A DNA stretch of 39,173 nucleotides from Lawsonibacter sp. (lineage in GTDB: Bacteria; Bacillota; Clostridia; Oscillospirales; Oscillospiraceae). The DNA is taken from contig JAAVYL010000060.1 of assembly GCA_022791075.1 (NCBI GenBank), forward strand, positions 1 through 39,173. Reading direction: 5' to 3'. Both the position numbers and the translations under genes were made by a program. The notes beneath the pieces are model-generated. The model was given only the letters and a program-made list of their open reading frames with translations. It had not been told where the DNA came from and made no database searches. Within the stretch, counting starts at the first letter, position 1. Every line of letters starts with the position of its first letter. Shown piece after piece: positions 3,107 to 38,218 of the stretch.

Positions 3107-3135
3107 TTGACAAAATTTGGCGTGCGAGGTATGAT
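3107..3135 (+). promoter_or_regulatory. Near-consensus sigma-A promoter (TTGACA-N17-TATGAT) for the small hydrophobic ORF
   Basis: TTGACA 3107-3112, 17-nt spacer, TATGAT 3130-3135. Confidence 0.85.
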
Positions 3136-3241
3136 AAAAACACCCATCAGTCAGATGGGACGGAAAGTGCGCTGTTACATAAAGGCGGTTGGCCCACCCT
3201 TTGAACCCCTACGCAAATCCAAACAGGGGGAGGTGGTGCAG

Positions 3242-3328
3242 ATGTGGAAAAAACGGATTTTTAAAGTAATCTGTTTTTTGGCAGGTTTTGCAATACTCAT
3301 GTGCCTGTCGTCCATAAATGCGTGTTAG
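3242..3328 (+). CDS. 28-aa hydrophobic single-span peptide, candidate type I toxin
   Basis: MWKKRIFKVICFLAGFAILMCLSSINAC; SD AGGGGGAGG 8 nt upstream; dedicated promoter and structured leader. Confidence 0.7.
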   Translation: MWKKRIFKVICFLAGFAILMCLSSINAC

Positions 3329-3355
3329 CCGCCCGGATGGCCCCGAGCGGCTAAC
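3324..3355. terminator. Stem-loop over the small-ORF stop codon; candidate bidirectional terminator or interaction stem
   Basis: GTTAGCCGC - 14 nt - GCGGCTAAC perfect 9-bp stem; shared by the two convergent transcripts. Confidence 0.6.
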
Positions 3356-3405
3356 GTCTTGTCAGCTAATTGACTTGGGCTAACCGTCAGTAACAGCGCC
3401 CTTCT
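3324..3405 (-). ncRNA. Predicted antisense RNA (candidate type I antitoxin) convergent with the small ORF transcript
   Basis: Initiated by a consensus minus-strand promoter at 3412-3440; predicted to run through the conserved 3' element into the 3324-3355 stem-loop (about 80 nt). Confidence 0.6.
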
Positions 3406-3411
3406 GTATCT

Positions 3412-3440
3412 ATTATATCCGTCTGCACGCCCCTTGTCAA
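3412..3440 (-). promoter_or_regulatory. Consensus sigma-A promoter TTGACA-N17-TATAAT for the antisense RNA
   Basis: Minus strand TTGACA (3440-3435), 17-nt spacer, TATAAT (3417-3412); exact consensus in both boxes. Confidence 0.85.
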
Positions 3441-36403: not shown

Positions 36404-37093
36404 TCAGGAGAGCTTTGCATCAAAAACGTAAAGGTCGGTGTTCTTTTCTCCAGGGAAGCAGAAGAACAGCTCCGAGGTGTTGAACAGAGGGAGTGTAACG
36501 CTCTTAGGTACCGCTCTGCCGGTGATCGGAATCTCAGCAAGCAAAAAGCCTTCATCGCCATAGACGGTCAGAGTCATATCATCCGAGGCGTAGACCTGGA
36601 AGGTGATGGAAGTGTATTTCCCTCCCAAATTGAAATGGGCCTCTTTATAGCTTCCATAGTAGCCCAGATAGAGCCAATGGCTGACGTCCACGCCGCCGAT
36701 ATTTTCCGTCTTGCCCTCAGAGCTCTGGATCTGCTTGCTGGCCTGACCCTTGATGCTGTAGGCCTTATAGGTGTCGATCAGGTCGACCTCGCCCTGCTTG
36801 CCCAGGAGGATGGCATTTGTGGCCTGATCCCAGCCCACATCAACGCCCAGCAGGTTGGCAATGGAGCGGATGGGGACGTAGTTCGTGCCGTTGTACACGA
36901 TGGGATAGGTGCGCACACCGTTGGACTCGGTAATAATCTTCTCCTCGCCGTCTACTTTGATGGTGACACCGGAGTTGAGATAAGCTTTAATCTCCTGCAG
37001 GCCGCCGGCCGCCGCCGCTCCCGCGGTAAAGCTGATCACAGCGGTCACGGTCACACACAGCGTCAGGATGAGGGCCAAGGTCCTTTTCTTCAT
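36404..37093 (-). CDS. Secreted protein: copper-amine-oxidase-like N-terminal domain plus NPCBM-like C-terminal domain (paralog A)
   Basis: MKKRTLALILTLCVTVTAVISFTAG signal; ITESNGVRTYPIVYNGTNYVPIRSIANLLGVDVGWDQATNAILLG; GGAGG SD before ATG 37093. Confidence 0.9.
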   Translation of the reverse strand: MKKRTLALILTLCVTVTAVISFTAGAAAAGGLQEIKAYLNSGVTIKVDGEEKIITESNGVRTYPIVYNGTNYVPIRSIANLLGVDVGWDQATNAILLGKQGEVDLIDTYKAYSIKGQASKQIQSSEGKTENIGGVDVSHWLYLGYYGSYKEAHFNLGGKYTSITFQVYASDDMTLTVYGDEGFLLAEIPITGRAVPKSVTLPLFNTSELFFCFPGEKNTDLYVFDAKLS

Positions 37094-37127
37094 GATGATT
37101 CCTCCATATCTTCTGTTTTGAACACCT

Positions 37128-37168
37128 TGACCTTTTGCATTGCAAAAGGTCACAAGGGTGCCCCTGTG
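37128..37168 (-). promoter_or_regulatory. Leader palindrome pair of paralog A
   Basis: TGACCTTTTGCA-T-TGCAAAAGGTCA perfect (37128-37152), overlapping CACAAGGG-TG-CCCCTGTG (37151-37168, one mismatch). Confidence 0.65.
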
Positions 37169-37173
37169 TATTT

Positions 37174-37202
37174 ATTATACCATGGCTTTCCAAAGATTGC
37201 AA
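37174..37202 (-). promoter_or_regulatory. Promoter of paralog A (TTGCAA-N17-TATAAT)
   Basis: Minus strand TTGCAA (37202-37197), 17 nt, TATAAT (37179-37174). Confidence 0.8.
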
Positions 37203-37220
37203 CCTTAGTAAGAAAAAACA

Positions 37221-37240
37221 ACCGCCCCGTCGGGCGGCTG
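37221..37240 (-). terminator. Terminator of paralog B
   Basis: Minus strand AGCCGCCC-GACG-GGGCGGTT then GTTTTTTC. Confidence 0.7.
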
Positions 37241-37312
37241 TCCTTTTATACTGGATTACTCCTCAGCGGAGCTCCCATACCCGCGCAGTCCTGCCCGCGG
37301 ATGGCCTGCGAA

Positions 37313-38041
37313 TTACTGCTCCACATCCAGATAGGCGTCAAAGATGTAAGTCTTAACATCGCCACCCGCATAATAAGGAACATTTGTAATCTGGAAGGTG
37401 AGCTGGTTCGTCTTGAACAGGGGGATCGTGACAGTCTGAGCTACCTGGCCGCCGGTGACATCCTTCTCAAACAGCACGGCACCGTCGTCGCCCAGAACCT
37501 GAAGGGTAGCATTTCTATTAGAGTAGTAGCTGAAGGTCAATGTATCGTGCTTGCCGCCCAGGTTGAAGGAAACACCGCTCACAGTTTTTTCGTTGCCATG
37601 ATACCTCTCACGGCCAAGTGTGAGCCATCTGGAACAGCTGACTCCCGATATCTCCATTGGATCCTTGTCCCCGGTTTGATATTGCGCACTCCAGTCAAAG
37701 GTCTGATAGTTTTTGTATGTGTCGATCAGGTCCACGCCGTTGGGCTGCTTGCCCAGAAGGATGGCGTTTGTGCTCTGATCCCAGTCCACGTCAACCCCCA
37801 GCAGGTTGGCGACGGAGCGGATGGGGACATAGTTCGTGCCGTTATACACGATGGGGTAGGTGCGCACGCCGTTGGATTCGGTGATGATCTGCTCCTCGCC
37901 GTCCACCTTGATGGTGACGCCGGAGTTGAGATAGGCTTTGATTTCCTGGAGACCGCCAGCCGCCCCCGCGACGGTGACGCTGACTACAGCAGCCACAGTC
38001 ATACACAGGGTCAGGATGATGGCAAGGGTCTTTTTCTTCAT
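37313..38041 (-). CDS. Secreted protein: copper-amine-oxidase-like N-terminal domain plus NPCBM-like C-terminal domain (paralog B)
   Basis: MKKKTLAIILTLCMTVAAVVSVTVAGAAGGLQEIKAYLNSGVTIKVDGEEQIITESNGVRTYPIVYNGTNYVPIRSVANLLGVDVDWDQSTNAILLGKQ; N-half nearly identical to paralog A. Alternative start MKKVKTESIT at 38071. Confidence 0.9.
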   Translation of the reverse strand: MKKKTLAIILTLCMTVAAVVSVTVAGAAGGLQEIKAYLNSGVTIKVDGEEQIITESNGVRTYPIVYNGTNYVPIRSVANLLGVDVDWDQSTNAILLGKQPNGVDLIDTYKNYQTFDWSAQYQTGDKDPMEISGVSCSRWLTLGRERYHGNEKTVSGVSFNLGGKHDTLTFSYYSNRNATLQVLGDDGAVLFEKDVTGGQVAQTVTIPLFKTNQLTFQITNVPYYAGGDVKTYIFDAYLDVEQ

Positions 38042-38101
38042 TGTGATGCTCTCCGTTTTTACTTTTTTCATCTTCTCTACCTCTCTTTTCTTTTTTGAAC
38101 G

Positions 38102-38145
38102 TTCTGATCTTTTACAATGTAAAAGATCAGAAGAGCGCTCTTCTG
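38102..38145 (-). promoter_or_regulatory. Leader palindrome pair of paralog B
   Basis: TTCTGATCTTTTACA-A-TGTAAAAGATCAGAA perfect (38102-38132), overlapping CAGAAGAGC|GCTCTTCTG perfect (38128-38145). Confidence 0.7.
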
Positions 38146-38150
38146 CCGCC

Positions 38151-38179
38151 ATTATACAACAGCCTTCCAAAGATTGCAA
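38151..38179 (-). promoter_or_regulatory. Promoter of paralog B (TTGCAA-N17-TATAAT)
   Basis: Minus strand TTGCAA (38179-38174), 17 nt, TATAAT (38156-38151). Confidence 0.8.
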
Positions 38180-38197
38180 CCCTATAAGTAAAAAACG

Positions 38198-38218
38198 GCC
38201 GCCCAACCGGGCGGCCGT
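38198..38218 (-). terminator. Intrinsic terminator of the S1 gene
   Basis: Minus strand ACGGCCGCCC-GGTT-GGGCGGCCGT followed by TTTTT. Confidence 0.85.

Follow-up and report, generated by a model that had tools for sequence, protein, structure and literature searches.

Conserved pairing between the two ends of a putative toxin mRNA in a multi-copy RNA cassette of gut Clostridia

Background

Does the messenger RNA of a small gene in a gut bacterium close upon itself by pairing its leader with its own 3' end and, if so, what would the closed molecule do? The question is raised by a locus on a contig of Lawsonibacter sp., all 39,173 nucleotides of which were analysed (hereafter, the window), where a 28-aa ORF lies between two segments that are complementary to one another. 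Among the mRNAs of type I toxins, hok and aapA are the best-known cases of such end-pairing, and complementarity of this sort occurs in bsrG too; the kind of system is, therefore, known already. A preliminary description of the locus had proposed that the full-length message folds back on itself and stays translationally inert until its 3' end is trimmed, and that an RNA from the opposite strand both imitates the mRNA leader and pairs with the 3' element. Here, we examine these proposals by comparison with a large number of related modules.

Results

Organization of the cassette

In order, the window copy comprises a strong promoter (P1), a leader arm, a hairpin holding the Shine-Dalgarno (SD) sequence, the ORF, a hairpin at the stop codon, a spacer, a 3' arm and a second promoter (P2) convergent with the first. 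P1, the predicted promoter of the small-ORF mRNA, occupies 3107-3135 on the plus strand (TTGACA-17-TATGAT, 11/12), and P2, from which an antisense RNA would arise, occupies 3412-3440 on the minus strand (TTGACA-17-TATAAT, 12/12, a perfect sigma-70 promoter); across the 58 related modules described below, both promoters stay close to consensus with few exceptions. The leader starts with a 5'-terminal hairpin (CCCATC..GATGGG, 3143-3159) and continues with the outer extension of the 5' arm (3160-3165), arm a (GCGCTGTTAC, 3169-3178) and arm b (GGCGGTTGGCCC, 3184-3195). The SD-sequestering hairpin follows at 3206-3229, where CCCCT (3206-3210) faces AGGGG (3225-3229), with outer pairs between CCACC (3194-3198) and GGTGG (3232-3236) that rival arm b for positions 3194-3195. 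The SD sequence itself, GGGGGAGG, lies at 3226-3233, upstream of the ORF (3242-3328), whose product, MWKKRIFKVICFLAGFAILMCLSSINAC, is predicted to be a single-helix membrane peptide and is a putative toxin.

The stop codon is held in the stem of the next hairpin (GTTAGCCGC/GCGGCTAAC, 3324-3355), a feature of both strands, and an element at 3361-3366 offers an alternative partner for the 3' strand of this hairpin. Beyond it lie 3' arm b (GGGCTAACCGTC, 3377-3388), 3' arm a (GTAACAGCGC, 3390-3399) and TTCTGT (3402-3407), the partner of the outer extension, which overlies the predicted antisense start. The antisense RNA would be about 90 nt long and cover 3313-3405 on the minus strand, its ends being placed by prediction. 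Elsewhere in the window, adjacent ORFs of 249 and 297 aa on the minus strand (36404-38206) share one and the same signal-peptide-like start and GLQEIKAYLNSGVTIKVDGEE block, likely as a result of tandem duplication.

A long helix joins the ends of the mRNA

The pairing originally described was borne out by the sequence: positions 3169-3178 are the exact reverse complement of 3390-3399, CGGTTGGCCC (3186-3195) pairs with GGGCTAACCG (3377-3386) through one G.U wobble, and a 7x3 internal loop separates the two helices. The helix exceeds the 20 bp first claimed, amounting to about 28 pairs between 3160-3195 and 3377-3407, as it grows inward by G3184.C3388 and G3185.U3387 and outward by pairing ACGGAA (3160-3165) with UUCUGU (3402-3407). 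The predicted fold of the mRNA reaches -111 kcal/mol, against -80 +/- 5 for shuffled sequences (z -6.4), and the duplex between the leader and the 3' region has a z of -3.75 relative to shuffled leaders; perfect 10-bp inverted pairs spaced 150-260 nt apart number 14 in the 39-kb window. Past the 3' arm, no clear plus-strand terminator was found in the window sequence. Taken alone, this single-sequence support for the fold-back is modest and it is, therefore, comparison that decides the question.

The cassette belongs to a large, multi-copy family

A DNA search across 99 related genomes gave matches in 26, with up to nine per genome, and yielded 58 full-length modules. For a wider search, a covariance model was built on the 3' part of the cassette; it found matches in 38 of 64 genomes of the same genus (up to 21 per genome), in 86 of 298 genomes and 55 of 149 genera of the order, in 39 of 292 genomes of the class and in 7 of 300 of the phylum. 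The named records are mostly gut Oscillospiraceae, for example Flintibacter muris and Pseudoflavonifractor sp. 60. Some copies adjoin phage tail genes, and the stop-hairpin pattern occurs on 21 viral contigs, in some cases close to tail or virion genes; phage records gave a single partial match and a search of PLSDB for plasmid carriage gave none. No Rfam 15 covariance model reached its gathering score, the matches being at chance level only. Several genomes carry tandem cassettes separated by a few tens to about 110 bp (loci L035, L023, L056, L058, L069 and L002).

Covariation and wobble pairs place the helix in the mRNA

None of the 56 related modules tested has lost the end helix, the energy of which is about -40 to -57 kcal/mol. 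In an alignment of 55 rows, 23 of its 28 pairs have changed on both sides, compared with 11.6 +/- 1.9 in shuffles, and the cells with two-sided changes number 103, against 31 +/- 7.6, both counts being unweighted for kinship. Arm a is paired in 94% of cells and arm b in 95%, with two-sided changes in 9/10 and 8/12 pairs, respectively, while the outer extension is paired in 73%, all six of its pairs having changed on both sides. If the partner is slid by one to three columns, the paired share falls to 31-51%. The 5'-terminal hairpin is missing from one subgroup and covaries where present (71% of cells paired, 3/6 pairs changed on both sides). The preliminary description had asked whether the arms covary in homologous loci, and they do; relatives in which one arm had been altered without compensation were not found.

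Complementarity between the arms could, in principle, serve either strand. Leader and antisense 5' end were, therefore, aligned under strand-symmetric scoring and the differences between the arms counted. Among transitions, 133 differences are of the type that gives G.U in the mRNA and 21 of the type that gives A.C; after conditioning on base composition, the excess retains odds ratios of 5 to 8 (Fisher p 2e-15 or less). The plus-strand duplex is the stronger one in 54 of the 56 modules, and a fold-back of the minus strand, weaker in those 54, was rejected. In a second set of 46 modules, nearly all of them belonging to different genera, families and classes, the search for the leader spanned 240 nt and the few modules whose leader was doubtful were kept; here, the counts were 128 G.U-type to 38 A.C-type, with the plus strand stronger in 40/46. 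Because the arm differences are G.U-type rather than A.C-type, the alignments show that the pairing acts in plus-strand RNA, that is, in the predicted mRNA, which must then include the 3' arm and so reach the antisense start, and probably pass it. Some of the excess of wobbles could arise because the antisense RNA has a 5' hairpin of its own to fold. The proposed fold-back of the full-length message is thus a real, conserved and covarying structure.

Opening of the ribosome-binding site

The SD sequence is sealed in a separate, covarying local hairpin that stands apart from the long end helix. We compared the predicted cost of opening the ribosome-binding site (RBS) in the full RNA, in RNA trimmed behind the stop hairpin and in RNA whose 3' arm was masked, as if covered by the antisense RNA; the means over 54 modules were 15.1, 16.1 and 16.3 kcal/mol, respectively. 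Opening is predicted to be cheaper in the full than in the trimmed RNA in 34/54 modules, and masking is predicted to make it 1.3 kcal/mol dearer on average (38/54 modules, p=1.5e-4), an effect that is absent from the window copy (16.2 full, 16.1 masked). The dinucleotide CC at 3194-3195, which can go either to the end helix or to the outer SD stem (CCACC/GGTGG), may partly account for these differences in cost. Trimming or antisense binding is predicted to free the leader arms, the unpaired fraction of arm a rising from 0.09 to 0.43 on trimming. Since the local hairpin keeps the SD closed with or without the 3' arm, trimming is not predicted to open the RBS, and the suggestion that the message is inert until its 3' end is removed found no support.

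A stop-codon hairpin constrained on both strands

Compensations in the stop-codon hairpin (3324-3355) are almost all Watson-Crick, with hardly any G.U, which argues for constraint on both strands and is what would be expected if each of the two RNAs used the hairpin. On the minus strand, the hairpin is followed by ACGCATTTAT in the window and by ACGCTTTT in most relatives, and the adjoining T-run is steadier on that strand (TTT in 89%, against 58% on the other). A terminator of the antisense RNA is, thus, likely embedded in the last codons of the ORF. Stop-codon type (TAG or TGA), hairpin and downstream copy covary across relatives over 3324-3366: TTAG-type hairpins are followed by a TTAG copy in 28 cases and by TTGA in four, TTGA-type hairpins by these in two and 16 (p=1e-7, with modules counted without regard to kinship). 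Ribosomes that reach the stop codon would open the hairpin and so permit pairing with the downstream copy; alternatively, the pair of hairpin and downstream copy may act in antisense termination.

Different peptides on one scaffold

The peptides of the family are about 23-33 aa long, charged and then hydrophobic, and mostly end in -AC. They are under purifying selection, pN being lower than pS in 76 of 78 pairs of one subgroup and in 193 of 253 of the other; the conservation of the peptide end is due in part to the overlap of its codons with the antisense terminator, AAAGCGTGTTAG reading CTAACACGCTTT on the other strand. The window peptide matched no family in Pfam, including Hol_Tox (PF16935), or in NCBIfam. 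Distant cassettes built on the same scaffold carry other peptides; two of these belong to Pfam Hol_Tox, with E about 1e-7, and also match, weakly, the type I toxin PepG1 of NCBIfam. Hol_Tox is a family of known type I toxins. Examples of scaffold-sharing cassettes with Hol_Tox-like or other peptides are L088 (1501-1627, minus strand), L095 (1501-1633, plus strand) and L127 (1501-1627, minus strand). The ORF, judging from these cassettes, appears to be exchanged inside a conserved RNA frame. At locus L061 (337-693), arms of the genus type are combined with a peptide of the VSTSEVLQLCLVIIGICGLFIQGKKK kind, also found in L129, a possible recombinant between subfamilies.

Discussion

A model for the cassette

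A small, hydrophobic, single-helix peptide that is conserved and has its own SD, together with a predicted antisense gene overlapping its mRNA (P2 being kept in nearly all modules), is what a type I toxin-antitoxin system presents in sequence. The cassette is apparently such a system, and this is the best reading of it mainly because the scaffold is shared with relatives that encode Hol_Tox; on this reading, the window peptide would be toxic and the antisense RNA would neutralize it.

We regard it as probable that, in this toxin-antitoxin cassette, the antisense RNA competes with the mRNA's own leader for the 3' arm. The P1 transcript would encode the 28-aa membrane peptide and extend past the antisense start; a helix of about 28 bp between its leader and its 3' end would close the molecule, while the local hairpin would shut the SD. 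P2 would give rise to the antisense RNA, some 90 nt in length, which probably ends at the hairpin of the stop codon. The perfect sigma-70 sequence of P2 predicts a minus-strand RNA whose 5' part, with GGGCGCTGTTACTGACGGTTAGCCC, is, as the preliminary description foresaw, a near-copy of the leader and a perfect complement of the mRNA 3' arm, and it is on this account that competition with the leader is proposed. The helix formed in cis has wobbles and an internal loop and the duplex formed in trans has neither, so the antisense RNA should invade, displace the leader and build a long 3' duplex. That duplex would presumably be a substrate of RNase III, and the SD stem would become slightly tighter.

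Alternative explanations

Several other roles for the end helix deserve consideration. Control of the Hok/AapA kind, with an inert end-paired mRNA whose RBS is opened by 3' trimming and an antisense RNA that catches the trimmed message, would fit the overall layout, in which a toxin mRNA has a conserved 5'-3' helix, and the predicted release of arm a on trimming. We consider it unlikely, as the SD lies outside the long helix and is predicted to stay closed in the trimmed RNA, and as the antisense RNA is directed at the mRNA 3' end, part of which at least would be lost on trimming. If, conversely, the end-paired form were the translation-competent one, to be disrupted by the antisense RNA in the way that TimR disrupts the timP pseudoknot (PMC11228461), the slightly cheaper opening of the RBS in the presence of the helix (relative to both trimmed and masked RNA) would be explained; an effect of about 1 kcal/mol on a barrier of 15 kcal/mol makes this proposal quite improbable. 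Somewhat unlikely, in our estimation, is a helix that mainly shields both ends of a long-lived message and has no direct role in translation. Local control of the RBS, enclosure of both ends by the helix, the 5'-terminal hairpin that precedes it and the stabilizing 5' helix (5'-UH) of Fst RNA I (PMC7472228) all speak for protection of this sort, which, on its own, leaves unexplained why the antisense RNA starts where it copies the leader.

Two explanations dispense with RNA pairing altogether. The likeness of leaders and promoters on both strands might reflect one protein that binds both promoter-proximal DNA regions, with the RNA pairing incidental, but binding to DNA would not favour G.U over A.C and the wobble counts of both module sets thus render this reading highly implausible. 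Multiple copies and inverted repeats also recall a small MITE-like mobile element with the arms as its termini. The arms, however, change by G.U-compatible steps and the ORF is under selection; moreover, conservation spans from one -35 box to the other, beyond the arms, and ends there. We rejected this possibility and give it next to no credence.

Relation to known type I systems

With aapA/IsoA of Helicobacter pylori and hok/Sok, the cassette has in common the mRNA for a small membrane peptide, the covarying 5'-3' helix, the antisense RNA and the multi-copy occurrence. In AapA, however, it is the long-distance helix that covers the SD, which trimming then exposes (PMC6733600), whereas here the SD hairpin should, by prediction, outlast trimming; Sok binds the 5' UTR, whereas the antisense RNA of the cassette would cover the mRNA 3' end and repeat the leader.

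Akin to txpA/RatA and bsrG/SR4 of Bacillus, the antisense RNA would converge over the mRNA 3' end, and related cassettes carry Hol_Tox peptides, those systems having Hol_Tox-like toxins; the window peptide is unrelated to them in sequence. The SD of bsrG also lies in a stem, which antisense binding is reported to lengthen (PMC4147584); masking in the present family is predicted to shift the RBS cost in the same direction, by a small amount that vanishes in the window copy. The leader and 3' UTR of bsrG from Bacillus phage SPBc2 (SPbeta; L270, 370-620) are complementary through CTCAAGGGA/TCCCTTGAG, which suggests that this mRNA, too, is end-paired, but its complementary 3' segment, judged from sequence, is not at the antisense 5' end.

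Fst/par of pAD1 resembles the cassette in its convergent promoters, a toxin mRNA of about 230 nt, a small antisense RNA, a stem-loop over the SD and a helix at the mRNA 5' end. Its direct repeats are read in opposite directions by RNA I and RNA II (PMC7472228) and give complementary leaders; here, in agreement with the distinction drawn in the preliminary description, the repeats are inverted and give like leaders, with complementarity to the mRNA 3' end.

Conclusions

In the freely accessible journal literature searched, we found no earlier description of this cassette in gut Clostridia, nor of an antisense RNA that repeats the leader, nor of a scaffold kept across different peptides. We tentatively suggest that the family may represent a widespread, undescribed RNA cassette of gut Clostridia, in which like leaders would exchange strands on one 3' arm, the peptide would be swapped inside a retained scaffold and a second switch, between the stop hairpin and its downstream copy, would report translation as far as the stop codon.

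Covariation shows that the ends of the putative toxin mRNA pair across a large, multi-copy family of gut Clostridia, whatever peptide the cassette carries and, therefore, it is the RNA scaffold, rather than the peptide, that is the conserved unit. With the scaffold as a model, many small toxins that lack annotation can be searched for, and the cassette lends itself to asking directly whether displacement of an mRNA's own leader is how an antisense RNA works.
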